Shown piece after piece: positions 7,103 to 29,577 of a stretch of DNA of 39,215 bases. Position 1 is the stretch's first letter. Each line of letters begins with the position of its first letter. The position numbers and the translations under genes were made by a program. Under the pieces are notes generated by a model. That model was not told the origin of the DNA. It saw only the letters and a program-made list of their open reading frames with translations, and made no database searches. The DNA lies in IMG/VR virus record IMGVR_UViG_3300006810_000124, positions 1-39,215 of that record; one strand, written 5' to 3'. The stretch is from a virus.

Positions 7103-8227
7103 ATGTCAGAAATGAAAGTAAAGGTGCTTGATGACACCTTAGAATCAAAATCTGTTCAAGAAGTTGAGCAAGAACTTCTTAACAAACATGAAGAAGAATT
7201 ACAGGCTGCCGAAGTCGGAAGTGAAAACACGCCAAACTCGGAAGTCGAGAACACTACAGAAGCTGCTGAAGAGCAGGCTGTAGAGCAAAGTGAGCAAGAG
7301 TTCACAGAAAAAGACGTTCTTTCATATATTAAGGATAGATACAATAGGGAGATTAATTCTGTAGAGGAATTGTTTGAGGCAAGAGCCGAAGCGGAAGAGC
7401 TTCCTGAGGATGTGTCAGCTTTCTTAAAGTACAAGAAAGAAACTGGTAGAGGTATACAAGATTTTATGAGCCTTAACAAGGATTATGATTCCATGGATGC
7501 TGACCAGATTTTGGCTGATTACTATTCTGCTACTGAGGATGACCTTGACAGAGAAGACATCAATTATTTGTTAAACGAAAAGTTTGCATACGATGAAGAT
7601 GTTGATGATGAGAAGGACATCAAGCAGAAACAGATAGCCAAAAAAAGAGAGCTTGCAAAAGCCAAGAAGTACTTCAATGAGTTGAAGGAAACATATAAGG
7701 TCCCTCTTGAGTCAAGCGGAGGCCTTGTTTCTGAAGATGAAAAGAACGACTACGAGGCTTACAAGAAATATATCCAGGAGTCCAAGAGTATCAATGAGGA
7801 AACCCTTAAGCGCTCTGAGTATTTTCAGAAGAAAACAGACGAGGTATTTTCCAATGATTTCAAAGGTTTTGATTTCAAAGTTGGAGACCAAAGTTTTGTT
7901 TACTCACCTGGCGATGCCAAAGAGATTAAGGAAACTCAGTCAGATATTAATAACTTTATTTCTAAATTTTTAGATAATAACGGTATGATATCGGATGCTA
8001 CTGGATACCACAAATCTATTGCTGTAGCAATGAACCCTGATAAGTTCGCAAAATTTTTCTATGAGCAGGGCCAGGCTAATGCTATTGACGATGTTACTAA
8101 AAAAGCAAAAAACATTGACATGGGTGTTAGACAAGCTCCTCAGGATATGAGCAAGTCAGGATTTAGCGTTAGAGCTTTGGATGATAGTAGTGGTAGAGGA
8201 CTCAAAATAAAGAGTAATAAAAAATAA
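7103..8227 (+). CDS. Capsid scaffolding protein
   Basis: 374 aa, very acidic, directly between portal and major capsid genes, the standard place for the scaffold that templates procapsid assembly and is later lost. Residues 1-75 are almost all Glu, Ala, Val and Gln with coiled-coil character (VQEVEQELLNKHEEEL). Further helical, charged segments follow (about 165-205, KQKQIAKKRELAKAKKYF). A short folded patch FKGFDFKVGDQSFVYSPGD lies near residue 255, and a basic C-terminus ends LKIKSNKK, the kind of tail that contacts the inner capsid surface. The leader before the ATG is A/T-rich without a Shine-Dalgarno sequence. I see no protease motif, so a self-cleaving scaffold is not indicated. Confidence 0.8.
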   Translation: MSEMKVKVLDDTLESKSVQEVEQELLNKHEEELQAAEVGSENTPNSEVENTTEAAEEQAVEQSEQEFTEKDVLSYIKDRYNREINSVEELFEARAEAEELPEDVSAFLKYKKETGRGIQDFMSLNKDYDSMDADQILADYYSATEDDLDREDINYLLNEKFAYDEDVDDEKDIKQKQIAKKRELAKAKKYFNELKETYKVPLESSGGLVSEDEKNDYEAYKKYIQESKSINEETLKRSEYFQKKTDEVFSNDFKGFDFKVGDQSFVYSPGDAKEIKETQSDINNFISKFLDNNGMISDATGYHKSIAVAMNPDKFAKFFYEQGQANAIDDVTKKAKNIDMGVRQAPQDMSKSGFSVRALDDSSGRGLKIKSNKK

Positions 8228-12218: not shown

Positions 12219-15200
12219 ATGATTACAAAAACTACATTTCTAAAGGGCATCATGAACAAGTCCGTTGATGAGCGTGTATTGCCTCAGGGTGAATACATTG
12301 ACGCTCTTAACGTTAGGGCTGGCTCTACAGAGGACACAGAGATTGGAGCTGTTGAGAACACAAAAGGTAACGAGCTCTTGGTTTCTCTTGAATATAACGG
12401 AGAGCCTCTTTTAAATGCCAAGTGTATAGGAGCTTATGAGGACGGGGCTAGAGAAACTATTTATTGGTTTGTTACAAGCTCTAATGTAGACATGATAGTA
12501 TCATACAATACCAATACGCAGACCCTGATAGAGCATGTGGTTAGTGTATCTGTTTTAAACTTTAGTGAGGAACACCTAATCAACTCGATTGATATGGTTG
12601 AAGACCTTTTATTTTTTACAGACAACTACAATCCTCCAAGAAAAATAAACACAAAAAGAAGCTACTTAACACCATTATCAGGTGTTGATAGACTTGAAGA
12701 GGATGATATATCTGTAATTGTAAAGCCGCCATTATCAGCTCCAACAGTTGCAACGTCAACTATAACAAAAAAAGGAAACTATCTTGAAGATAAGTTTATA
12801 ACTTTTGCATACAGATGGAGGTATCTTGATGGAGAGTATAGCGCATTATCTCCCTTTAGTGATGCTGCTTTTATACCTCAATCATTTGGAATAGATATTA
12901 TTGAATACTCTAATTCTGGAATGTTAAACATTAACAACGTTGCAAACGTTGGATTTAATTCTGGTGACAAAAGGGTAAAAGAGATTCAACTATGTTTTAA
13001 AAGAAGTGACTCTAATACAGTATATGTTATAGATAACTTTAAAAAAGAAGACCTCGGAATATCTAATGGTACTATCTATACAACATCATTTGACAATAGT
13101 AAAATATATACTTTACTCCCTCAAGAGGAATTGTTTAGGCTATATGATAACGTTCCGAGATTTGCTCAGGCTCAGACAGTTATGGGTAACAGACTTATGT
13201 ATGGAAACTATGTTGATGGATACAACATGGAGATTACAGAAAATGGCCAGTCGTTAAGTGTTGACTATGATGTAGAGCGTGTTTCGAGTGAGGTTTTTGA
13301 TTTTGGAATTGATGATGAAAAATTTAATGCTGCATATAGCATAGACCCTGCTAATCCTTTATACTTCCCTGTTGATTCCGGGGTTAGATTTGATTTTGAA
13401 GACTTTATTTCAACTGAAGGTAAGTCTTTTTCAAAAGGCTCTATAGTTACATTAGACTTAGTTCTTTCTCATGAAAGCTACACAACTACAGGCACAGCTC
13501 CAACAGATTTTCAAAGCCCAATAACTATTGGGATTTCTTTTGAGTTATCACAGGATTACGAAAACATATCTGATTTAGTTTATTCAAGTGACTTTGCCAA
13601 TGCGATAGGTACTGACGCTACTATAAGGCCAATAGCTGATGCTGAAGACGGTGGAACTCTTACTGACTTGTTTAATTCTTCTTTATCTGTAAGCGCACTG
13701 CCAAGCGGATACTCATTAGAAGGAACGGGAGTTGATGGAGTAGATGAGGGCTTCCCATTTGGTATGTATGGAAATAATGTTTCAAGTCTCGTTATTAATG
13801 CAGCCAAATATACACACGCTACAGACCCTGATATATACGAATATTTTACTGTAAGCGATGTAAGTATGTCTTTTAGAAGCCCTGGAGGGTTTGAGACACT
13901 ACACAGTAATAGAGATTACGCTGTTGGAATTGTTTATAATGATGAATACGGAAGACAAAGCACAGTGTTTACTGATGAAAATAATAGTGTTTTTGTTGAT
14001 TCGTCTTTTATGACTAAGCAAAACAAAATAAAAACAACAATCAATAGTCCTGCTCCATATTGGGCTACTAATTATAGAATGGCTATTAAGCCAACATATG
14101 GTGGTTATGAAACCATATACAGTTTATTGGTTTTTGAAAAGCAAGGTTTTGTTTATTTTTTACTTGATGGAGAAAACTCAAGAAAGGTTGAAGAGGGGGC
14201 TACTTTAATAGTTAAATCAGATTCAGCAGGTGCTACAAATAGACTTATAGAAACCACAGTTCTTGAAATAAAAGCACAAGAAACTAATTTTTTAAATCCA
14301 ATTGATAGCGGAGCTTCGATAATACAACCAGCTGGCATATACATGAAGATTAAAGCTACTAATTTTTCTGTTGATTCAGATGAGGAGTTAGTTACTTTTA
14401 CTTCTCCAACGCTATACAATGGCAGTTATCAAATGAGTAAGCTTTGCTCAATGAGATTAAGACAAGGTAGGTATAGGGGGTATAGCAGGGCTGTTCTTTC
14501 TCAAGAAAGCGAGTCCGGTGCCTCTTTACCATTCACTCCGGTTAGCATACCCGTGGGCAGTCAGGTTAGAGTTGAGGTTCAATTTCTTACTGCAGCAGGA
14601 TGTAATGCTCGTTTAGATAAAGTATATATTGCAGAACGTGATTGGGATGATTTCCATGCGATGTATCAGGGTCAGAATTTAAACATAAATGAAGACTTTA
14701 TATATTCCGATGAAGCCGCAGGTGGAGGGTGTTTTACAATTATAGATTCAGATTCTCTTGTTACATTTGATTCCTCAACAAGCCCCTGTCGCTACCTTAA
14801 AGAAGCAAGGCCGTTAAATGCCGACCCATCAACATGTCAAGCTTCTATTGATTTTGTTAAAGACACATCAACCGGGGAATTGTTTATGAGAGCAGTTGCA
14901 CCAGATTCGTTTTGTTTTTCTGGAGATGCTTATCAAGTTACGGTGGCAAATATAGTTGTAACTATAGTTAAGTCGTCTGGATTGTATGTTTTTGAAACTA
15001 AGCCATTAGCCATAGACAATGATATATATTATTTATCAAATGAGGTTTATGATATAACAAATGGTTATCATCAAGGAGGAACTCAAAATCAAACAGCTTC
15101 TCAGCCAGCGATATCGACATTAAGCTTTTTTGATTCGTATTGTTTTGGAAACGGTGTTGAAAGTTTTAAGGTAGAGGACAAGCTTGCTGGAGATACAGTA

Positions 15201-16994
15201 CTTATTGGTCAGCAAACATCAGCGGTATCGGAGCAAGACTACAAGGAGGCCCATAGATTTGCGTCAATTACCTATTCAGGTGTATTCAATGCAGAAACAA
15301 ACCTCAATAAGCTCAATCAGTTTAACTTGGCGTTGGCCAATTACAAAGACCTTGAGCAATCTTTTGGGGAGATAGGCGTACTACACGCAAGAGAAACAGA
15401 CTTATTGACGCTTCAAGAGGATAAGATATCCTATGTGTTGCAGGGTAAAAATCTATTATCAGATTCAGTTGGAGGCGGAAGTATCGCATCTGTACCCGAA
15501 GTTCTTGGAACTCAGATAGCTCGTCCAGATGAAAATGGTATATCACTTGACCCATCAAGCTTTGCTCATTACGATAACAACGTTTTCTTTACAGACGCAA
15601 AAAGAGGTGAGGTCCTAATGCTGAAAGGTGGAAGTTATAAAAATGATAGCCTTATATCAATATCAGAACTTGGTATGCGTTCTTTCTTTAGAGATACATT
15701 CATAGATGAATTTAGTACATTAAAGCTTGGCGCTTACGACCCCTACATGGATGAGTATGTTCTTAGCTACAATTCAGAGGCATCCGTTGTTGAGCCCGTG
15801 TATGATGTTGAGTGTGACTCTTCATTGTCAAGAACAGACCTTGTTACAAGCGATGTATATGAGGTTACGTTTGAGCCTGTTATAGGAACTGTAGATATTG
15901 ATTATGAAATAGATGCAGACCAACAAGCCGTTATGACTGTGGAATGGGATGGCTCTACCGTTATCAACTCTATAGTTAGCGGAACGGGTAGCGAGTCATT
16001 TGCTAAAAGTAAAACATATCCAAATACAGCAACAGTAAGAATGTCCTGTGAAGGAGGCTCTGTTGCTCCGTGTAACACAGGTATGGATGTTGTATTCCTG
16101 GTTGACTATACAGGAAGTATGGGTGATCAAATAAACACCGTAAAAGACCAAATATCTACTATAGTAGATACCATTGTAACTGAATCTGGCGGTGATTATA
16201 GATTAGGACTTGTTATTTTTGATGAGGTAGATACTACATACGCGCCACCAGGCGATGATTTTAGATACATATCTAATCCAGCTTATACATCACTTCCAGC
16301 GGCGCAAAGATACATTCAGGAAACAAACCCTCCATTTAAACAAGGAATTACTACACTCGAGGTGATGTCAACAAGCAATGGAGATTCATTCAAAAGAAAA
16401 GTAAATGAGATGAATTCAGGACCCGCAATTGAATTCCCTCTTACGGGTACTGCAACTGGCACAATTGTCAATAAACTTGTTGATTCTGCAGCGACATTTA
16501 TTTCAGATAATATTACTACGGGAGACGTAATATACAACACAACTGATGCCACATCGGCGGCTGTTGTATCTGTAGATAGCGAAACAGAGCTTACTCTTGA
16601 TGCTGATATATTTGTGTCTGGGGAAGATTGGAGTTATGGATTGCCTCTTGGTAGCGGCGTTAGTGGCCCTGAGCCTTCTGATATAGGATTTAGCAGAATT
16701 GTTGAGCATGATATAGCCGGTATATTTAGAAATGATGTAAATAAAATGGTTATTATTTATACAGACAACTTGCCTGGTGGTGACTCCGATACATACGAAG
16801 AAGCCGATGCTGATGAAATGAGAAGAATAGCCTCTATATGTAACCTTAACGGAATAGCCGTTAGTGTAATAGGAACCGTTTCTGGCGATACATTTAATGC
16901 TTATCAGGATACTGCCGATATAACAGGTGGTGTGAGAACAAATAGCTTTGACTCTACCGCAATACAACAAGCTATAGAAGATATATGTGAATAA
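12219..16994 (+). CDS. Tail muzzle/stabilisation protein with C-terminal vWA domain
   Basis: 1591 aa. The N-terminus (FLKGIMNKSVDERVLPQGEY, then DALNVRAGSTEDTEIGAVEN) is characteristic of the long tail stabilisation ('muzzle') proteins of crAss-like podoviruses. The body has many beta strands and ends with FFTDAKRGEVLML (about 1125) and AYDPYMDEYVLSYN (about 1173-1186). Beyond that are a beta-sandwich-like stretch (about 1195-1285) and a vWA domain from about 1288: MDVVFLVDYTGSMG supplies a MIDAS-type D-x-T-x-S motif, and MVIIYTDN a later core strand. The vWA is interrupted at about 1408-1475 by a beta module (VNKLVDSAATF, VGD-type loop, ELTLDADIF). vWA domains bind protein or glycan ligands through a metal, so a host-adhesion role is plausible. 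The stop overlaps none of the next ORF; the next ATG follows by 1 nt. Confidence 0.8.
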   Translation: MITKTTFLKGIMNKSVDERVLPQGEYIDALNVRAGSTEDTEIGAVENTKGNELLVSLEYNGEPLLNAKCIGAYEDGARETIYWFVTSSNVDMIVSYNTNTQTLIEHVVSVSVLNFSEEHLINSIDMVEDLLFFTDNYNPPRKINTKRSYLTPLSGVDRLEEDDISVIVKPPLSAPTVATSTITKKGNYLEDKFITFAYRWRYLDGEYSALSPFSDAAFIPQSFGIDIIEYSNSGMLNINNVANVGFNSGDKRVKEIQLCFKRSDSNTVYVIDNFKKEDLGISNGTIYTTSFDNSKIYTLLPQEELFRLYDNVPRFAQAQTVMGNRLMYGNYVDGYNMEITENGQSLSVDYDVERVSSEVFDFGIDDEKFNAAYSIDPANPLYFPVDSGVRFDFEDFISTEGKSFSKGSIVTLDLVLSHESYTTTGTAPTDFQSPITIGISFELSQDYENISDLVYSSDFANAIGTDATIRPIADAEDGGTLTDLFNSSLSVSALPSGYSLEGTGVDGVDEGFPFGMYGNNVSSLVINAAKYTHATDPDIYEYFTVSDVSMSFRSPGGFETLHSNRDYAVGIVYNDEYGRQSTVFTDENNSVFVDSSFMTKQNKIKTTINSPAPYWATNYRMAIKPTYGGYETIYSLLVFEKQGFVYFLLDGENSRKVEEGATLIVKSDSAGATNRLIETTVLEIKAQETNFLNPIDSGASIIQPAGIYMKIKATNFSVDSDEELVTFTSPTLYNGSYQMSKLCSMRLRQGRYRGYSRAVLSQESESGASLPFTPVSIPVGSQVRVEVQFLTAAGCNARLDKVYIAERDWDDFHAMYQGQNLNINEDFIYSDEAAGGGCFTIIDSDSLVTFDSSTSPCRYLKEARPLNADPSTCQASIDFVKDTSTGELFMRAVAPDSFCFSGDAYQVTVANIVVTIVKSSGLYVFETKPLAIDNDIYYLSNEVYDITNGYHQGGTQNQTASQPAISTLSFFDSYCFGNGVESFKVEDKLAGDTVLIGQQTSAVSEQDYKEAHRFASITYSGVFNAETNLNKLNQFNLALANYKDLEQSFGEIGVLHARETDLLTLQEDKISYVLQGKNLLSDSVGGGSIASVPEVLGTQIARPDENGISLDPSSFAHYDNNVFFTDAKRGEVLMLKGGSYKNDSLISISELGMRSFFRDTFIDEFSTLKLGAYDPYMDEYVLSYNSEASVVEPVYDVECDSSLSRTDLVTSDVYEVTFEPVIGTVDIDYEIDADQQAVMTVEWDGSTVINSIVSGTGSESFAKSKTYPNTATVRMSCEGGSVAPCNTGMDVVFLVDYTGSMGDQINTVKDQISTIVDTIVTESGGDYRLGLVIFDEVDTTYAPPGDDFRYISNPAYTSLPAAQRYIQETNPPFKQGITTLEVMSTSNGDSFKRKVNEMNSGPAIEFPLTGTATGTIVNKLVDSAATFISDNITTGDVIYNTTDATSAAVVSVDSETELTLDADIFVSGEDWSYGLPLGSGVSGPEPSDIGFSRIVEHDIAGIFRNDVNKMVIIYTDNLPGGDSDTYEEADADEMRRIASICNLNGIAVSVIGTVSGDTFNAYQDTADITGGVRTNSFDSTAIQQAIEDICE

Positions 16995-16995
16995 T

Positions 16996-18021
16996 ATGGG
17001 ATGTGCTAATTATACAATAACGTTTAACTGTGTGCAGGCTGAGACCATAAACGTGGTTTATATTGTGCTTAATGCTAACGAGTACGCAAATCAAACAGTT
17101 AATATAAGACAAAGATGGTCTGACGGAACTACCGATAGCCCTGACTTTAACAGGTCTGTTTTATTGGAATCTGACACAGTTGGTGTTAGGGGTGTGTCTA
17201 TATTTGACACCGTTACAGGTCTTGAGTCTTCAGGAGCAATCCCTGTTGAGGGGTCTACTGTAACGCTTGACCTTCTTGAGGATGATAGCTTTAGTTTCGA
17301 TACATCTAAACATTCATTTAAGTATTTAGTTTCTAATACTCAGTATGATGAGGATGATTTAGATACATTGATACCACTCTTAAACACAACAGCTACTATA
17401 ACAAATCCTACTGACGGAACTTATAGGTCCACGTTTACATACACAAATCCAAGTGACGATGACTACCTTTATATAGTGTGGGATTTAAGATACTCGAATC
17501 AGCAAACATTATACTTTGACGCCTCTTCTGAAACAACCGCTTGTTGTTCAGGTGTTTCTGGAACATACTATTTAGATGCAACATCTTTTGATTTAGCGAG
17601 TATGATTTATACGGATGCTGATTTAATTACAGAGGCTGTAGATGGATATTATGCTGACAACCAATCATCAGGTGGTTCGTATAGGGAAGTAGAGACGGTT
17701 GGTTCTGATAAACAGTTAAACGGAAACACAGTGTGTGCTTCATGTGCATCAAATAGTTATGAGTTTGACATTGACCCAATTCAATATGACAGTCCTGACT
17801 CTTCGAACTGTTCTACTGCAACGTTTTCATCTTCTTTGTATAAGAGCGATTCATATCCTTTCTTACAAAGGGGTGATGTTATGTACACAGACGCAGCGCT
17901 TACAACTGCATATAACGGAAACAATAAATGGATAGCAATTAGAAAGCCAGGGTTTCCAACAATTATTTATGCTAAAATTGACGGCTCAGGAAATGTGTTA
18001 ACTTTATATTTATGCTTTTAA
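16996..18021 (+). CDS. Cysteine-containing tail-associated protein with internal repeat
   Basis: 341 aa from the ATG at 16996 (an in-frame GTG at 16987 inside the previous gene is less likely). The N-terminus MGCANYTITFNC and the first 190 residues are beta-rich with Thr, Asp and Ser. The second half holds at least two diverged copies of a Y-T-D-A-x-L-x-T unit: MIYTDADLITEAVDGYYADN (about 210) and VMYTDAALTTAYNGNNKW (about 293). Cys residues occur as CC (about 183), a CxxC (CASC, near 250), SNCS and the C-terminal LCF. No signal peptide is seen. The gene lies between two pieces of what is usually one tail protein, so it probably belongs to the tail tip or fibres. No family name can be given. 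Confidence 0.65.
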   Translation: MGCANYTITFNCVQAETINVVYIVLNANEYANQTVNIRQRWSDGTTDSPDFNRSVLLESDTVGVRGVSIFDTVTGLESSGAIPVEGSTVTLDLLEDDSFSFDTSKHSFKYLVSNTQYDEDDLDTLIPLLNTTATITNPTDGTYRSTFTYTNPSDDDYLYIVWDLRYSNQQTLYFDASSETTACCSGVSGTYYLDATSFDLASMIYTDADLITEAVDGYYADNQSSGGSYREVETVGSDKQLNGNTVCASCASNSYEFDIDPIQYDSPDSSNCSTATFSSSLYKSDSYPFLQRGDVMYTDAALTTAYNGNNKWIAIRKPGFPTIIYAKIDGSGNVLTLYLCF

Positions 18022-18023
18022 TT

Positions 18024-18779
18024 ATGGCGAGTAAAACATTAACATTTAGCGAAGGAGCAAAAGGATGGCCATCATTCTATTCTTATATACCCGACTACAT
18101 GATAGGTATGAATAATTATTTTTATTCATTTAAGAATGGTAATTTGTACAGGCACAATACTAACGAGACCAGGAACAATTTCTATGGTGTGCAATACAAT
18201 AGCACAATAAAAGGTGTGTTTAATGTTGAGCCTACAACCGTTAAGTTATTCAAGACCATAGAGATAGAAGGTGATGATGCCTGGGGGGTTACAGCCACGA
18301 CAAACCTGTCATCGGGCTCTATATCGTCATCTTACTTTGAGGAAAAAGAGGGTCGTCAGTATGCTTTTATTCGCTCAAATGAAACGACTGTAGATGCTAA
18401 TCTTAGAAATGTCAGCGGTATAGGAACTGTTACAACTGTTGATGCTACAACGCCTACGGCTACGACGCTTACATTCCCAAGCGGATTTAAGTTTAGCACC
18501 ATGATTAGTGTTGGTGATTTAGCTTATAAAAACAACTCAGGTACTCTTGTTCTTTTGGGAGAAATAAAAAGTGTATCTAATAACGTTATGACTATAGACA
18601 CATCAATTACAGGGGGAAGTGTTCCTGTTGATGGTGACTTTATATTGTACGTTAAAAACAGTGTCGCTGAGTCTTATGGGCTTAGGGGTTATTTTATGGA
18701 ATTTGAGCTCACGAATTCACTTACTACGCCAACGGAGATATTCTCTGTAGGTTCAAGCATTTTCAAGAGCTTTCCTTAA
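18024..18779 (+). CDS. Tail muzzle C-terminal-like protein
   Basis: 252 aa from the ATG at 18024; an upstream in-frame ATG (18012) lies inside the previous gene. Residues 4-60 contain LTFSEGAKGWPSFYSYIPDY, then MNNYFYSFKNGNLYRHNT and NNFYG. In crAss-like tail stabilisation proteins this block normally follows the 'YDPYxDEYVLS' block of the same polypeptide; here that block ends about 2.2 kb upstream in a separate gene. A later part (about 130-215) contains a beta module with SVGDLAYKN and MTIDTSI, then the chain ends SIFKSFP. It probably packs against the 1591-aa protein in the tail. The next gene has its own promoter. Confidence 0.65.
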   Translation: MASKTLTFSEGAKGWPSFYSYIPDYMIGMNNYFYSFKNGNLYRHNTNETRNNFYGVQYNSTIKGVFNVEPTTVKLFKTIEIEGDDAWGVTATTNLSSGSISSSYFEEKEGRQYAFIRSNETTVDANLRNVSGIGTVTTVDATTPTATTLTFPSGFKFSTMISVGDLAYKNNSGTLVLLGEIKSVSNNVMTIDTSITGGSVPVDGDFILYVKNSVAESYGLRGYFMEFELTNSLTTPTEIFSVGSSIFKSFP

Positions 18780-21297: not shown

Positions 21298-24200
21298 ATG
21301 GATAAACTTCAGCAGCTATATAATCTAATGCTAGAGCAAGGGTTGTTGACTAGCGACATTAGCTTAGAACAGTTCAGGGTAGCTGATGAATCTCAGCAGG
21401 ATGCGCTTTACAATTTATCCCTAAACGAGGGTATTATAACTGCAGATGCTGTTAGCAATGCTGATTTTAAGGCTGCTTGGTCTGAAAGCGCACAGAAAAT
21501 ATCTGATTTTAACGAAGAACTAAAGGACTCAAAGGAGAATGTTGTTGAGCTACAAAGACAGGAGAAAGAAAGAATTGCTGCAAGAGAGATGGCTCCTCCA
21601 GAGGTTGTGGTTGAAACTACAGCTGCGGTAGAAACAGCTCCTCCGATTGTTGAGGCAAAGCCAAAGCCAATTAGTCAGCAGATTAATGAGGACATAGCTG
21701 AGTACTCCTACATGAGTCCAGAGGAGATGGCCATTAAAGACAGGGAAAGAGAAGACGAAACACTTCAAAGAATACAGCGAAGAAACGAAGGGTTCTATGA
21801 TGACCAAGGTCTTATTGATTCCATATTCTCAAGAGAAAAACTATCACAGATTGAAGGTCTTGATATCGAGGAGTTTAAGGAGTTTATGATAGACTCAGGA
21901 AGGCTTGAAGAGATTAGAGATAAAGCGCAAAGAGGGTTGTATGAAAACAAATATGGAACAAGCCAAGACCCTGGATTAGCGTATGACTTCGACAGGTATA
22001 GCGCTATTGATGCTTTTTTAACGTCAAAGCTTTCACAGGAATACGGAGACGTTTACTATAATAAGCAAAAACAAAACGCAGGAATTGCAACGTCTTTATC
22101 AAAAGAAGAAACTCCAAGACTGAAAGTAAATCAGGAAAAATTAAAATCATACATAGGTGATGAGATGCTTCTTCTTACTGAAAAGTTAAAAGAACAGGAA
22201 GCTGAAAACCAAGAGCTTGTAAAAAGGTATCAGGATGACAATCTAAACGGTGGATACAAAATAAAACAAGGCCTTAAAAAAGGATGGGAAGGATTTGAAA
22301 AGGGAGTAGGAGCAACATCCGTTGCTTTTTATGACATGATAGGAGCTGATAACATAGCTGATGCATTAAGAGCTCAATCTATTCAGGATAAAATATTTGA
22401 CCCTTATGATGCAACCTATGGATACGCTTCCGGAAAAAGGGTATTTGTTGATGGGGTAGAATATATTGTAGATGAAAGGGGTCAGATTTATGATGCTGTA
22501 AAACTTTTAAATGCAACAAATCTTTTAGACAGTAAAAAAGCATCTGAGATATACTCAAAAGCAAGTAGGTCAAACCAAACAGGACAAACGATGAGCGGTT
22601 TTGGCATGGCCTCTAATCTTGCTAATGTTATGGGTGACATAGGATGGCAGGTAGCTTATCAGGCTGCTTTTGTAGGCGGGGGTAAAATAGTTGGAAGCGC
22701 AGCTAAGCTGACAGCTCCTACCAGAGTAGCCTCTAATGCGCTCGCTAAAATACCAATAAAGAAAAGTTTAGCATCATCTATCATAGCTCAGAGTACCTTG
22801 GGATATTCAAGAGGTCTTAGGGATATTTACGTTGAAGCAAAAAAGAACGGGCTATCCGATAAAGAGGCTGAGGAGTTATCATCTTTAGGAGCTCAGCAGA
22901 TGGGTCTTTTGTATGCTGTTACAGCTCCGATAGCTGCAAGAACAAGGATTACAGATAAGATATTAGGAGAGCCAACCAAAGAGATAACCAAAAAAGCGGT
23001 TAGAGAGTATCTAAAAACAGGTAAAAAAGGTTTCCTTGATGTTATAGGCAACGCAAGAAGAAACTTAGGGACTTATGGTCTTGAAGGATTTAAGGAATTA
23101 GTTCAAGAAAATGTTCAGCAAGCAGGTGAGAAGTTTGTTATTAATCCTGATATAAATAAAGAAGCAGGAAGAAAAATACTTGATGATACCATTACAATGG
23201 ATGATTTCATCAATACAAGTATACTTTCTTTTTTAGCAGGAGGAATGTTGCCAGCTGGTATAGATATCAGCACGGATACATACAGCTTATTTAAGGACGG
23301 CTCTATAGCTAAGATGGAGTCTTTAGCTTTTTTATCTCAGGACCAGGACAAAACAATGGAGCTTGTTAACTCACAGGTTTCTAAAGGGTTATACACACAA
23401 TCTCAGGCAGATAAATTATTGTCTGATATTAATGTGTACAGAACAACTATAGGCAGGATGCCTAAATCCACAAGCCCTCAGGCTGCATCTGTTATGATGT
23501 CTGATATGGCTGAGCTATATGATTTAGAACAGCAAAAGAAAAATACAGACCCTGTATTCCATTCAGAGATTGACTCTAAGATGTCTAACATAAAAGCCCG
23601 GATACAGTCTACTATTGAGTTTGACCAGCTAAGCTCTGAGTCTAAGCTACAGTTTACTGAGGAAGCAACTAAAAAATTACAAGCTGAGAAAGACCCTGAA
23701 ACCTCATGGGAGATAACTGCTGACGAGACATTTAACGAAGCAAGAAAGCTTTACTATCAGTATAAGACTGATTTTTCAGATTTTGATGTAACAGAAGAGC
23801 AAGCCACTCAATCACTTGTGGATGAGGGTGTTACAGAGCCAACATCTGAGCAGGTTACTGCAAGAAGAAAAGAGTTAATATTTAAAAATTTAGACGATGC
23901 CATTCAAAAGCGAGAAGCAAGAGATATACCTGATGTTGAACCAGCCGAAGCTGTACAAGAAGTGGAAGCAGAAGTACGGGTCGCTCCTGAAGAAGAGGTC
24001 GAAGAAGAGAGGTTAACAGACTCACAGATACCTAAATCAAAAACAATATATACAGCGAAAGCAGATGACGACACTACTAATACCATTGAGGTTACAACAC
24101 GTCTTGATGGTAGCAGGGATATTCTATATAAAAATGAGCAAGGTGGTGTATATCAAAGAGAAACGTTATCTCCGGATAATACACTGACCAATGAGGAATA

Positions 24201-27200
24201 CATATCAAATGTTGTTGGAGATGTAACAGGCTCTGAGGACATCGCTTTAGATGATGTGATGAATCCTAAGATGCGTGAAAGATTATCCGAAAGACAAAGA
24301 GCTGAGCTTGGTATCGAAGAAGAGGTAGCTCCAGAAGAAGAGGTAGCTCCAGAAGCTGAAGTGGATGAGCTAGAGGATTTAGAGAGAGCGCTTCGTGATG
24401 AGGAGGTTAAGTTTTTAAAAGGACAAACATCAGCTATTGAAACTCAGGAAGCTTCTGAGCAATTGGTTGAGGAGATGAACAACCTTGAGATAATCAATGA
24501 GGGCGTTGTTGTTCCTAACCCTGAAGAGCGTGTAGCCATATCCGTAGAGGGTGTCACAGAACGTGATGGTATTATTGCTGATGAGATACCTACTGTAAGG
24601 ATTGAGGATTACAACGGCATCCCTATGGTTAGCACAATATCTGACCAGCTTGTTTCTGGAAATGTAGAAAACCCATACACCGGTAATACTATTGACAACC
24701 TAAAAGGTGGTATGTTCTATAGCTTCACAGAAGGAAATGAAGGTTTAGGTTGGACATATAAAGACACAAAAAAAGGCGGTGAATTTTTAACCGCAGCAAA
24801 AAGGGCTTACGAAAAAAATCCGGAGGCATATAAAAAAGCATGGGCCGATGGTAGAATACCAAACAATCATGTTCTTGTTCAGGTGGTAAAAATGTCTCAG
24901 GATAGTATACTGTCTAATGAGGCCCTGTATAGAGTTCTTGTTGACAATGTATCAACGCTACCTAAAAAGAATCAAACAAAAGCCATGACAGTTTTAAGGC
25001 AAGACCTTAAGACTCAAGTTAATAATAAGAAAGACAAGCAGGATTCTAATACACAAAAAGAGGTTGCCGCATATACTGAGTTTTTAAATATTATTAAGGG
25101 TAAGAAAAATATTATTGAAGCTATAGAGCTTATACCTCAGCTAAACGTTGACGCAAGGCCGTATATAATAAAAAGAATAACAAACGGAAGTATTAACGAA
25201 GCGGGTAAACCTCTGCCAAGATTAATTAAGCCAAGGAAAGCAGTCCCAAAGGAATTATTAGAGGGAGTTGAAGGTAAAAATGAGCTTACAAACGTAGCTT
25301 ACATTGCTGATATTATTACAGAACCGGCTCATAAGAACGTACCCAAAAGGCATGTTATGGCTATAACTTCTGTTGATATTAGCGAGAATGGTGGAGTTGT
25401 TGAGGGCAATCACCCAAATTACAAGGGAGCTATTAAGGGTGAATTCTTAGGTGTTGTAGAGGAAAGCGCGGCTCTAAAAGACTTATACCCAAAAGCATAC
25501 GCCAATGTAGTTAAAGGCATTATAGGTAAGGAAGCTGCAGGAAAAGAGACTAAAGTAGGTATAGAAATAAGCCAAAATATTCCTGTTCAGTTAGGACTTA
25601 CTGACTTTATATTTAGAGGAATGGTTATGAACCTGAATCAGAGTGACTTATCTAAGCTCACAGGGTTCTTGTCGTTATCATTCCCATCTACAAACTTCTA
25701 CACAGACCCGGATACATGGCAGACAGTTATGGAATCTGATAGTGTTAGAAAATACATTAAGGATGGAGAGGTTGTGTATGGCCTTACAACAAACGGAGAC
25801 ATATACCTAAACCCTGACTTTGAAAGCTTCAACACTCCGATACACGAGATGGGCCACATATGGACTGATTTTATTGAGGAGAGTAACCCAGCGTTATTTA
25901 ACCGTGGTATAAAACTTGTTGAAGGTACTAAGGCTTTAGAGACAGCAAAAAAAGAATTAGGCGACACGCTTGCTGCTCGTAAAGAAGCTCTTTCGATACT
26001 CATTGGGAACAGAGGGCAGGAGATAACTGACGCAGCTCAGAGAAGCAAGTTTCAAGAATGGCTTGTTGCGCTTTGGAAATATGTTAAAGAAAAATTCAAG
26101 AGCTTGCGTGGTTTAACCCAAGAGCAGATTGAAAACCTAACGCTTGCTGAGTTTATTGACGGTGCTTTAGCTGATATACTTGGAGGACAAGAGATAAGCA
26201 AAGCCAAGATAAAGGGCAAGAATGATATCGAGGTAGCCTTTCAAAAAGCAGAGGAGAATATCTACGATATAATTAACAAGGCAAGAGACCTCAATTTTAA
26301 GGACAATGTAATAAAATCATTCCTTAAGAAGAGAGGCTTCACTGCTACTGAAATTAATGAAGCGTTAAATCTTCCTGTAGATTCGCTAAAAAATCTGCCT
26401 GCTTCATTCAGAAATGTAGAGGGGGGTATCAAAGTTGGCCTTCCTTTATATGAGAAGATTTACAAATACGCACAGAAACAGGTGGGCAAGTCAAGAACAA
26501 AAGAAAATATAGACAATGCGATTGATAAAGCCATCACATACCTACAGAAGCAAAAGGATTTCAAAGCACAGGACGATATTACAGCTGATGCACTTGTTCG
26601 TGAGTTCCAGAGAAGCTTAGGCAGAAGGCTGAAAAGGTCTCCAAAGCTTGAAGAGCTTGAGTATGAGGGTCAGCTTGTAACACAGCTGTCTAATCGTGAT
26701 GAGATTAGAGTAATCAAGCAGAGAATAAAAGACTCAAGCGCCAAAGGATTACAAAAGATTAAGTCTGACATCAGAACTTTTATAAGAAAAAATCTTCCAA
26801 GAGCTGAGTATGGAAAAGCTGAGGTTACAAAAATGGTTAGCCTTGTTACTAACGCCAAAACTCCAAACGATTTAGAGTCTGCAACAGAGCAGGTAATTGA
26901 TTTTATCTACAAGAAAAAAGCTGACTTATCCGCAGCTCGTATAGCTAACATACTTAAAGGAAAGTACGAGAGAATACAATCAGGAAGACGTGTGGGCGTT
27001 AAGATATCTCCAGAAGCTAACGAGAGAATCAAAGCAATTGCAGAAAACATGGTATCTGAGGATGTCGAAACAAAGAATCAAGCCCTTGTAGATGCAATTA
27101 ATGAGCTACAAACCAAAACAGATTTAACTCAGCAGGATATCGAGGAGATTGTAAATCTTGAAACAGCTCTTATGTATAATGAAGCAATGCAGATGGATGA

Positions 27201-29577
27201 TTCCAATCCTTCTAAGCTTCACAACCTTATGAGGGTAAACCTTAACCTTGCAAGAATCATTGAGCAGGGTAGAACTGAAAGAGCTGAGGAGCTTGCAGAA
27301 GAATCTGCCCGTAAAAAAGAAATTATCTCAAGAGGCTTTGAGGATATTACAGGTATGCCGTTTACAGATGTCGATGGTATAGAGAATGAGGCCGATAGAA
27401 AGGCTGTAATGGATGAAAAAATTAAAAACAACGCAATCCTTAGAGCTAAGAAAAGAGAGCGTGAATCATCCTTAAAATTAGTTAGAAGTATAAATACTTT
27501 TATAGCGTCAAATGAAGACCTCGATGGTCTTATAGATATTATATCCAAATCAACAGGTGATTATATGGGAGGAGCTCTTCAGGAGTTAATATCTGAAAAA
27601 GAATTTGACTCTCGTAATGAGTACAAAAAAAGAAATCTTGAGCTTAAGCAAGAGCTTGGTGATAAACTTGAGGAGATATTCGGTAAAAGATACGCTAAAA
27701 TAATTAAGCCGTTCTCAAAAGAGACAGAGGTTCTTAACATTGATGAGGATACAGAAGTACCTATCAGCCAGAACAAGATGATGTACCTATACAATCAGTA
27801 TAAAGATGAGGCAAACCATCCAGGGTTTGAGTCTGCGTTTGGCTCTAAATATGCTGAGGTTATGGAACAGTTAAACCAAAAGCTTGACCCAAGGCTTAAG
27901 GAGTTTGCTGATTATCAGGTGAATGTATTATTCCCAAGGCTATACAATGATTATAATCAGGTGTATAGAAAGATATACAAAACCAATCTTCCTTGGAACA
28001 GAAAGTACGCAGGTAGATTGTATAGGGACGGAGATACACTTGAGAACTTAGACCTTATGGCTAATCCTGCCGTGTATAAAGCATCAATAGGAGGAGCCTC
28101 AACTAAGGCTCGTGTAAAAAACAAAAGACCTATACAGGCTGTTGATGGAATGGATATGCTTGTATCTTATCTAAACGACATGGAGTTTTTTAGGGCTTAT
28201 GCTGAAAACCTAAAAGATATAAATACTCTTGTAGGAAACTCAGATGTCAAGCTTGCTATAGAGGCTACCTCTGGGCCTGATGTATACAATCTTTTACAGG
28301 ACAAGCTACAGAAGATAGCCAACAGAGGCTCAATGAAGGGCAATCAGGTTCGTATTATAAACATAATGAACGATACATTCGTATTATCTCGACTTGGAGT
28401 TAATCCTACAGTAGCAATTAAACAGCTTACATCAACAACAGCTTATGCTTCTGATATAGGGTTTAGAAATTGGACTAAATATGCAGCCAAGGCTATGCCT
28501 AATATAAAATCTGTCACAAAAGAAATACTTGACAACTCTGTTTATCTTAACGACAGGTATTCAACAAGCATCAAAAATGTTTTAGAGGCATATAATACAG
28601 GCGAAGTAGCTAAGATGTCTCCGATAAAAGGTAAGAGCTGGGCGGATATATTGATGTATCTTGTGAAGCAAGGTGATAAAGGAGCTATACTTTTAGGTGG
28701 TGCTCCAAACTACTTATATCATAAAGACCAATACAAGTCTAAGAATCCTAACGCATCTGAGGATGAGGTTGTTAAGTATGCAATAAGAAAGTTTGAAAGA
28801 GAAACAGACAAGGCTCAGCAGTCTTCTGATATAGCATCAAAGGATTTGTTCCAAACAGGAGACCCATTGTCCAGAGCCTTCAACTTATTCTTAACCACAC
28901 CTAAGCAGTATCAGCGTAAAGAAAATTCAGCAATTAGAAATCTTTACAGAAAGATGCGTGGCATGCCATCTAAGGGTACTTTTAAAGAAAACCTTAGAAC
29001 ATTGTTTGTATATCATGTATGGCTTCCTGTTGTATTCCAATACGTTACTCTTGGTTTACCGGGTATTTTGTCAGGATTTGAAAAAGAAGATAAGGAGGAT
29101 TTAATCAGAGCTGCTATTCTTGGAAACCTTAACGCTTTCTTTATAGTGGGTGGATTGATATCTACTATTGCTGATTATATTCAAGGTAAACCTTGGGCTG
29201 GTAGAGTTCAAACACTTCCAATCATAAGCGTTCCTCAGGAAATATTTTCTGACGCAAACAAAGCTGTAACATCTAAGAAGCAAGAGACAAGAGATAAGTA
29301 TACAGAAAAACTTATTCAGCAAAGCTTAATGTTAACAGGTATACCCGCATCTACATTGTCTAAGCTCGGTAAAAATTGGGCAGATGTTGTTACGGGAGAA
29401 ACTGATGGAGCACAAGAAACAATACTTAAGCTGTTAGGATATAGCGATTATATTATTGAAGGGCCAAAAGATAATAAAAAAGCTAAGTCAAAAACACCGG
29501 CAAAGAAAGACATGACTGAGCAGGAGAAAGCTATACAGAAAATGCTTGACCAAATAGAAAAGGAAAAGGGCAGCTAA
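21298..29577 (+). CDS. Giant internal virion protein with HEMGH metallopeptidase motif
   Basis: 2759 aa, the largest gene here and last of the late block. The N-terminus has two related segments (LYNLMLEQGLLT and LYNLSLNEGIIT). Hydrophobic stretches lie at about 444-470, 526-550 and 637-660. A Glu/Pro/Ala-rich linker (about 880-1045) includes a tandem EEEVAP. A central region has HEMGHIWTDF at 1516-1520, the zinc-metallopeptidase HExxH motif. A long helical, charged region (about 1600-2300) follows. Near the C-terminus are two strongly hydrophobic segments (about 2566-2592 and 2604-2627), then a Lys-rich tail. Size, order and domains fit a polyvalent ejected protein of the T7 gp16/crAss cargo kind. 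I found no RNA polymerase active-site motif (DxDGD) and no lysozyme motif I can name. Confidence 0.72.
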   Translation: MDKLQQLYNLMLEQGLLTSDISLEQFRVADESQQDALYNLSLNEGIITADAVSNADFKAAWSESAQKISDFNEELKDSKENVVELQRQEKERIAAREMAPPEVVVETTAAVETAPPIVEAKPKPISQQINEDIAEYSYMSPEEMAIKDREREDETLQRIQRRNEGFYDDQGLIDSIFSREKLSQIEGLDIEEFKEFMIDSGRLEEIRDKAQRGLYENKYGTSQDPGLAYDFDRYSAIDAFLTSKLSQEYGDVYYNKQKQNAGIATSLSKEETPRLKVNQEKLKSYIGDEMLLLTEKLKEQEAENQELVKRYQDDNLNGGYKIKQGLKKGWEGFEKGVGATSVAFYDMIGADNIADALRAQSIQDKIFDPYDATYGYASGKRVFVDGVEYIVDERGQIYDAVKLLNATNLLDSKKASEIYSKASRSNQTGQTMSGFGMASNLANVMGDIGWQVAYQAAFVGGGKIVGSAAKLTAPTRVASNALAKIPIKKSLASSIIAQSTLGYSRGLRDIYVEAKKNGLSDKEAEELSSLGAQQMGLLYAVTAPIAARTRITDKILGEPTKEITKKAVREYLKTGKKGFLDVIGNARRNLGTYGLEGFKELVQENVQQAGEKFVINPDINKEAGRKILDDTITMDDFINTSILSFLAGGMLPAGIDISTDTYSLFKDGSIAKMESLAFLSQDQDKTMELVNSQVSKGLYTQSQADKLLSDINVYRTTIGRMPKSTSPQAASVMMSDMAELYDLEQQKKNTDPVFHSEIDSKMSNIKARIQSTIEFDQLSSESKLQFTEEATKKLQAEKDPETSWEITADETFNEARKLYYQYKTDFSDFDVTEEQATQSLVDEGVTEPTSEQVTARRKELIFKNLDDAIQKREARDIPDVEPAEAVQEVEAEVRVAPEEEVEEERLTDSQIPKSKTIYTAKADDDTTNTIEVTTRLDGSRDILYKNEQGGVYQRETLSPDNTLTNEEYISNVVGDVTGSEDIALDDVMNPKMRERLSERQRAELGIEEEVAPEEEVAPEAEVDELEDLERALRDEEVKFLKGQTSAIETQEASEQLVEEMNNLEIINEGVVVPNPEERVAISVEGVTERDGIIADEIPTVRIEDYNGIPMVSTISDQLVSGNVENPYTGNTIDNLKGGMFYSFTEGNEGLGWTYKDTKKGGEFLTAAKRAYEKNPEAYKKAWADGRIPNNHVLVQVVKMSQDSILSNEALYRVLVDNVSTLPKKNQTKAMTVLRQDLKTQVNNKKDKQDSNTQKEVAAYTEFLNIIKGKKNIIEAIELIPQLNVDARPYIIKRITNGSINEAGKPLPRLIKPRKAVPKELLEGVEGKNELTNVAYIADIITEPAHKNVPKRHVMAITSVDISENGGVVEGNHPNYKGAIKGEFLGVVEESAALKDLYPKAYANVVKGIIGKEAAGKETKVGIEISQNIPVQLGLTDFIFRGMVMNLNQSDLSKLTGFLSLSFPSTNFYTDPDTWQTVMESDSVRKYIKDGEVVYGLTTNGDIYLNPDFESFNTPIHEMGHIWTDFIEESNPALFNRGIKLVEGTKALETAKKELGDTLAARKEALSILIGNRGQEITDAAQRSKFQEWLVALWKYVKEKFKSLRGLTQEQIENLTLAEFIDGALADILGGQEISKAKIKGKNDIEVAFQKAEENIYDIINKARDLNFKDNVIKSFLKKRGFTATEINEALNLPVDSLKNLPASFRNVEGGIKVGLPLYEKIYKYAQKQVGKSRTKENIDNAIDKAITYLQKQKDFKAQDDITADALVREFQRSLGRRLKRSPKLEELEYEGQLVTQLSNRDEIRVIKQRIKDSSAKGLQKIKSDIRTFIRKNLPRAEYGKAEVTKMVSLVTNAKTPNDLESATEQVIDFIYKKKADLSAARIANILKGKYERIQSGRRVGVKISPEANERIKAIAENMVSEDVETKNQALVDAINELQTKTDLTQQDIEEIVNLETALMYNEAMQMDDSNPSKLHNLMRVNLNLARIIEQGRTERAEELAEESARKKEIISRGFEDITGMPFTDVDGIENEADRKAVMDEKIKNNAILRAKKRERESSLKLVRSINTFIASNEDLDGLIDIISKSTGDYMGGALQELISEKEFDSRNEYKKRNLELKQELGDKLEEIFGKRYAKIIKPFSKETEVLNIDEDTEVPISQNKMMYLYNQYKDEANHPGFESAFGSKYAEVMEQLNQKLDPRLKEFADYQVNVLFPRLYNDYNQVYRKIYKTNLPWNRKYAGRLYRDGDTLENLDLMANPAVYKASIGGASTKARVKNKRPIQAVDGMDMLVSYLNDMEFFRAYAENLKDINTLVGNSDVKLAIEATSGPDVYNLLQDKLQKIANRGSMKGNQVRIINIMNDTFVLSRLGVNPTVAIKQLTSTTAYASDIGFRNWTKYAAKAMPNIKSVTKEILDNSVYLNDRYSTSIKNVLEAYNTGEVAKMSPIKGKSWADILMYLVKQGDKGAILLGGAPNYLYHKDQYKSKNPNASEDEVVKYAIRKFERETDKAQQSSDIASKDLFQTGDPLSRAFNLFLTTPKQYQRKENSAIRNLYRKMRGMPSKGTFKENLRTLFVYHVWLPVVFQYVTLGLPGILSGFEKEDKEDLIRAAILGNLNAFFIVGGLISTIADYIQGKPWAGRVQTLPIISVPQEIFSDANKAVTSKKQETRDKYTEKLIQQSLMLTGIPASTLSKLGKNWADVVTGETDGAQETILKLLGYSDYIIEGPKDNKKAKSKTPAKKDMTEQEKAIQKMLDQIEKEKGS
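24316..24351 (+). repeat. 18-bp tandem repeat, two copies
   Basis: GAAGAAGAGGTAGCTCCA occurs twice head to tail and encodes EEEVAP-EEEVAP in the acidic linker of the giant virion protein. A related Ala-Pro-Glu stretch occurs near 23986. It looks like linker growth by slippage, without other function. Confidence 0.85.

Follow-up and report, generated by a model that had tools for sequence, protein, structure and literature searches.

A crAss-type tail muzzle encoded on separate genes, with adhesion-type domains at the break

The muzzle is regarded as a highly conserved element of crass-type phage tails, and its solved structure consists of one unbroken chain (PMC10172136, PMC10136315). We analyzed a stretch of 39,215 nucleotides, positions 1 to 39,215 of the IMG/VR virus record IMGVR_UViG_3300006810_000124 (hereafter the window), in which the C-terminal block of such a protein lies on a gene of its own. 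An initial annotation proposed that receptor-interaction modules, among them a vWA domain, had been inserted into the chain and had displaced its C-terminus, yielding a new tail-tip architecture. The locus thus raises the question of whether the muzzle is indeed divided here and, if so, whether the inserted modules divided it.

Muzzle genes in the window

The locus contains three ORFs, 12219-16994 (1591 aa), 16987-18021 and 18012-18779. The likely start of the second gene is ATG 16996, which gives 341 aa, and the preceding stop is TAA 16992-16994, so that the junction reads TAAtATG; the likely start of the third is ATG 18024, which shortens a 255-aa ORF to 251 aa, with the junction TAAttATG (Table 1). 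These ORFs bear out what the initial annotation had described, namely AYDPYMDEYVLSYN in the 1591-aa protein, which we place at residues 1172-1185, a C-terminal block beginning a separate gene at 18024, and roughly 2.2 kb between the two, which we measured as 2253 nt. Its length for the second protein was right, while the 252 aa given for the third should read 251. Since these three genes recur, with an identical TAAtATG junction, in an independent contig (L011, 3300034380_000017), the three-gene arrangement is not an assembly error.

Table 1. Features of the muzzle locus in the window.
Feature	Position	Strand	Basis or remark
Muzzle body, residues 1-1186, from the N-terminal part to the final conserved strand of the propeller ahead of split site A	12219..15776	+	phrog_14478, E 1e-225
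AYDPYMDEYVLSYN, residues 1172-1185 of the 1591-aa protein, last body strand before site A	15732..15773	+	Position; strand E318-325 in the model of a fused relative
Cassette domain 1, predicted beta-sandwich (bsand)	15777..16073	+	After the body in 50/55 nonredundant split loci; strands in a low-confidence model
vWA-like domain, C-terminal end of the 1591-aa chain	16074..16991	+	PF00092, E 3e-4, just under cut-off; MIDAS DYTGS / IT / TD intact
Mini-domain of about 75 aa inside the vWA, limits approximate	16422..16643	+	Missing from the L018 vWA
341-aa protein	16996..18021	+	Cassette domain 2 (p344N) in the N-half, about 17005-17547; the C-half, about 17548-18018, is similar to variable downstream genes
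MUZ_C gene for 251 aa, the C-terminal portion of the propeller and the closure of the muzzle	18024..18779	+	PF25729, E 4.4e-15; gp44 1200-1291, E 2e-11

The assignment of these genes to the muzzle rests on profile matches. The 255-aa ORF scored 56.3 bits against PF25729 (crAss_MUZ_C), above the curated cut-off of 27, and a profile built from 14 sequences of this protein matched residues 1200-1291 of PhicrAss001 gp44, in agreement with the earlier claim that the old C-terminus had become its own gene. A PDB sequence search with single proteins gave no match, and gp44 was reached by profile only. The 1591-aa protein matched structural proteins of Cellulophaga, Flavobacterium (Elemovirus) and Manatee Spring podoviruses, the Manatee Spring phage homologue at 38% over body residues 7-1279. 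The strong match of the body to phrog_14478 was not used as proof of adjacency, because the same profile columns match the cassette (described below) and MUZ_C alike, probably because both fused and split proteins belong to phrog_14478. Only 2-19 residues of one chain separate the body end from MUZ_C in Elemovirus, phi40:1, Gundelvirus and gut cr10_1, and the two blocks adjoin in a single chain also in Pervagoviridae, other gut crassviruses and gp44, so the initial annotation was correct in taking them as normally consecutive. By these matches the 1591-aa protein is a crAss-type muzzle body and the 251-aa product the muzzle C-terminus. The single continuous chain, a trait of crAss-type muzzles, is absent in the window, where separate genes represent the split form of the family.

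The break and its occupants

To locate the break, split site A, on a structure, we modelled residues 786-1354 of a naturally fused relative (L098) from aligned homologues of both forms, fused and split. The model matched gp44 1024-1371 with Z 11.8, and its first part matched the propellers of other podovirus nozzles. Site A falls on a two-residue beta-turn between strands 318-325 and 328-335, modelled with pLDDT of about 80 or more. Across 52 split loci the MUZ_C gene starts at a median of 2 residues ahead of the first MUZ_C-profile residue, just before the second of these strands, and the break therefore respects the blade, leaving one strand on each side. MUZ_C retains a conserved strand-forming motif, and its divergence correlates with that of the body at r 0.86 in split loci and 0.88 in fused chains, which we regard as supportive only, because core genes correlate too (0.78), in part through shared descent. 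The divergence of the cassette domains follows that of the core genes less closely.

The initial annotation had counted the 341-aa protein among the inserted modules, but it is not an unrelated insert: its N-half matches the C-terminus of the muzzle ORF of relatives with 26-43% identity. A beta-sandwich follows the body within the muzzle ORF in 50 of 55 nonredundant split loci and in none of 18 fused ones. The second cassette domain, p344N, is likewise on the muzzle ORF, as the chain's own C-terminal domain, in 50 of the 55; it was found in all 52 plain split-A loci and in none of the 18 fused or 9 split-B loci. The C-half of the 341-aa protein (p344C) matches the N-termini of separate small variable genes in relatives. 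The cassette is complete in the window, and is divided there by the vWA domain and a second gene break; p344N on its own gene, with vWA between, was seen only in the window and its close relative L011 among the loci found.

The vWA domain itself scored just below the cut-offs, with 21.3 bits against a gathering threshold of 23.8 for PF00092 and similarly for PF25106, and its homologue in locus L018 passed the PF00092 cut-off with 24.1 bits. The MIDAS motif DYTGS / IT / TD, in which T replaces the first S of DxSxS, is conserved in the window, L011 and L018, and suggests metal binding. A model of window residues 1171-1591 was poor (pLDDT 47.5), and the Foldseek matches of its vWA part to integrin beta I-like domains (E 2e-5) are for this reason taken as weak support only. 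A scan of IMG/VR for the vWA recovered L011 alone, and tblastn with the vWA against phage records gave no match. The placement of the domain differs between loci: unlike in the window and L011, where it directly follows the sandwich, in L018 it sits after p344N and a thrombospondin-1 (TSP1) repeat. The vWA is therefore mobile, and the third chain of the window a secondary event. Stretches similar to the mini-domain within the vWA (LVDSAATF..GDVIYN..) occur in relatives, both in separate genes upstream (as in L022) and in the muzzle bodies of L050 and L058.

Other loci hold other material at the break, where the insert measures 568-7226 nt, as against 154 aa or less in fused chains. TSP1 repeats occur in the muzzle tails of L026 (5497-9444), L027 (6228-9443), L013 and L018, with up to 11 repeats in L026 (E 1.5e-140). 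L018 carries TSP1 and vWA together, a pairing familiar from animal and apicomplexan adhesins. Further domains at the break are Big_9/cadherin-like (phi13:2), Ig-like, He_PIG and BACON, and in L134, L180 and L182 genes for a GDP-mannose dehydratase-like protein, a GlcNAc glycosyltransferase and a 2OG-oxygenase lie between the muzzle and MUZ_C. A small group (L060, L069, L078 and L082) has a separate MUZ_C gene with an N-terminal extension, in which a second strand-like motif, GQFDLIENDYFLSF, resembles the last body strand. The body of this group ends in a tail of about 95 aa; BACON was matched in two tails, and the tail may be BACON-like.

Age and number of the splits

We found 384 relatives of the 255-aa protein in IMG/VR, and in the best 80 of the 384 it is always separate from the muzzle body. 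The search was then widened to fused and Baltivirus-like forms, and the 193 loci classified in all, in proportions that reflect the collection, comprise 136 plain split-A loci, 10 split-A loci with an extended N-terminus, 14 split-B and 33 fused, the last being the kind of relative that the initial annotation had proposed looking for. In Maribacter phage Panino (L006, PP540027) and L138 the apparent split seems to come from a single frameshift in the record, so that both were counted as fused; in Panino the frameshift breaks the muzzle gene at about 7650-7780 and is probably a record error.

In the body tree the window belongs to a clade of 48 rows with full support, all of them split, and an independent tree of capsid (MCP), adaptor and ring proteins, in which only neighbouring non-Crassvirales families were placed, gave a comparable clade, again of 48 rows. 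Apart from this clade, near the fused L098, stand the likewise split Baltivirus and L179. When all split-A rows were held together, the AU test rejected the arrangement with p 1e-74 for core genes, with p 0.015 for MUZ_C and, more weakly, with p 0.038 for the body. Split-A thus likely arose at least twice, in the window clade and separately in Baltivirus, although the presence of long branches keeps this from being certain; module transfer is the alternative to a repeated origin. The split form was also found in the genome of a cultured isolate, Flavobacterium caseinilyticum, and in a Cytophagales MAG, and the fused form in Tenacibaculum sp. MAR_2009_124.

A division at another loop characterizes the split-B clade (L157, L163-L168, L185, L186, L189, L190, L192 and L193), where the last 110 or so residues of MUZ_C form a separate gene of 113-144 aa, located 1.3-4.6 kb downstream.

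Known muzzles, a possible mechanism and its alternatives

The gp44 muzzle of PhicrAss001 (PDB 7QOK, 7QOL, 8CKB; PMC10172136) has a homologous body end and MUZ_C, forming a propeller with C-terminal closure at a gated tail tip, but unlike the window's muzzle it is one 1371-aa chain, unbroken at the MUZ_C start (about residue 1200). For gp44, variation in length and surface has been reported in the crass and IG2 domains, which are different places from the site A turn, a point against the explanation offered below; Bayfield et al. proposed that the distal muzzle contacts the cell, triggering gate opening (PMC10172136). The muzzles of Elemovirus, Pervagoviridae (phi40:1) and Gundelvirus also have a homologous body and MUZ_C, but on one chain and without the cassette. 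Separate muzzle and MUZ_C genes are already present in public records (MW202828 and the Cellulophaga phages phi13:2 and phi18:3), and our literature search found no published description of a split muzzle or of TSP1 in phage tails. The Manatee Spring podovirus MW202828 and the IMG/VR split-muzzle clade share with the window the same split, the cassette and a variable gene before MUZ_C, but have p344N on the muzzle chain and lack the vWA. In Baltivirus (phi18:3 gp114/gp115, phi13:2 gp120/gp121) the body and bsand-p344N cassette are likewise accompanied by MUZ_C on a separate gene; the differences are a probably separate origin of the split, p344N on the body gene, no gene between and, in phi13:2, a cadherin/Big_9-like domain where the window has the vWA. 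Both the body and the MUZ_C product of phi18:3 are annotated from virion MS/MS, which speaks for their presence in virions and not for their membership in the same subunit. L011, with the same bsand-vWA / p344 / MUZ_C layout, differs from the window by sequence divergence only (body 74% by blastp, MUZ_C 82%). Because the break is old and common to many related viruses, the window's muzzle is a variant of a known machine, and what remains of the novelty initially claimed for it is where the vWA sits and that the genes break a second time, both shared only by L011 among the contigs found. The vWA arrangement is a rare variant; of greater interest is the wider pattern, a propeller split at loops and hosting adhesion domains that can be exchanged.

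We consider it likely that a crAss-type muzzle chain was broken at a beta-turn of its propeller, that the free end grew exchangeable adhesion domains and that MUZ_C completes the propeller in trans. The muzzle would be a gated hexamer at the tail tip, with its chain interrupted at a surface turn, and the MUZ_C chain would supply in trans the closing strands, the last blade and, for one blade, its outer strand. Each subunit would then be rebuilt from two chains, three in the window, whose genes abut closely as they are translated. With the turn opened, the body C-terminus would no longer need to return to the propeller, and adhesion domains, in the window a vWA with a metal site, could then be added or swapped without disturbing the gate; they would probably contact the host surface and help to trigger gate opening. 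To our knowledge, there is no structure of any split muzzle. A broader reading, to which we give about even chances, is that the propeller gate was split at surface loops repeatedly (at site A at least twice, at site B in another clade), with its blades completed by a separate chain, and that it became a docking port for the exchange of animal-like adhesion domains (vWA, thrombospondin-1, cadherin) in Bacteroidota phages.

The explanation initially offered, that the muzzle of this phage was split when insertion of the vWA and the Cys-containing module pushed its C-terminus aside, has in its favor that these modules are indeed found between the two blocks, and adhesion-type domains are present there. 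Yet the whole 48-row clade is split and nearly all of it lacks the vWA, so the vWA was not the cause; the split predates it on two trees, and the split-muzzle chain has the N-half of the 341-aa protein as a domain of its own. We therefore regard this course of events as very improbable. Hardly credible is that a single chain is made after all, the break being due to a sequencing or assembly error, a programmed frameshift, an intron or an intein. Single frameshifts do break the gene in the Panino and L138 records, but stops and ATG starts are conserved in L011, separate genes occur in more than 100 loci and in an isolate genome, many loci have whole genes between the parts, and MUZ_C starts at a strand; an Rfam search of the window, which bears on introns, gave no match.

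What the separate chains do allows more room. MUZ_C and the 341-aa protein might be free tail-tip or fibre proteins, the propeller being incomplete or closed differently, and the second strand-like copy ahead of MUZ_C in the L060 group hints at varied closure; we find this unlikely, as MUZ_C keeps its strand-forming motif and diverges together with the body. The appended domains might also have a part in assembly or in stabilizing the tail, or their partners might be phage proteins instead of host receptors, and the vWA MIDAS could conceivably bind a virion partner. Against this stands the rapid exchange of adhesion-type modules, the usual pattern for receptor contact, and we hold such a role to be possible, although it is not what we would expect.

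A muzzle repeatedly broken at loops, with adhesion domains at the break, suggests that host specificity in these phages may sit in the gate and not in fibres. The cultured Baltivirus phi18:3 (split) and Elemovirus or Pervagoviridae (fused) offer a directly testable system. The separate MUZ_C gene, now labelled in records as a generic structural or hypothetical protein, can also be annotated as such.

Two minor observations concern single sequences. One IMG/VR contig of 99577 bases carries two Elemovirus-like muzzle genes (L172 and L173) and is possibly a chimeric assembly. In the window, positions 21298-29577, downstream of the tail genes, encode a 2759-aa protein with no Pfam match.
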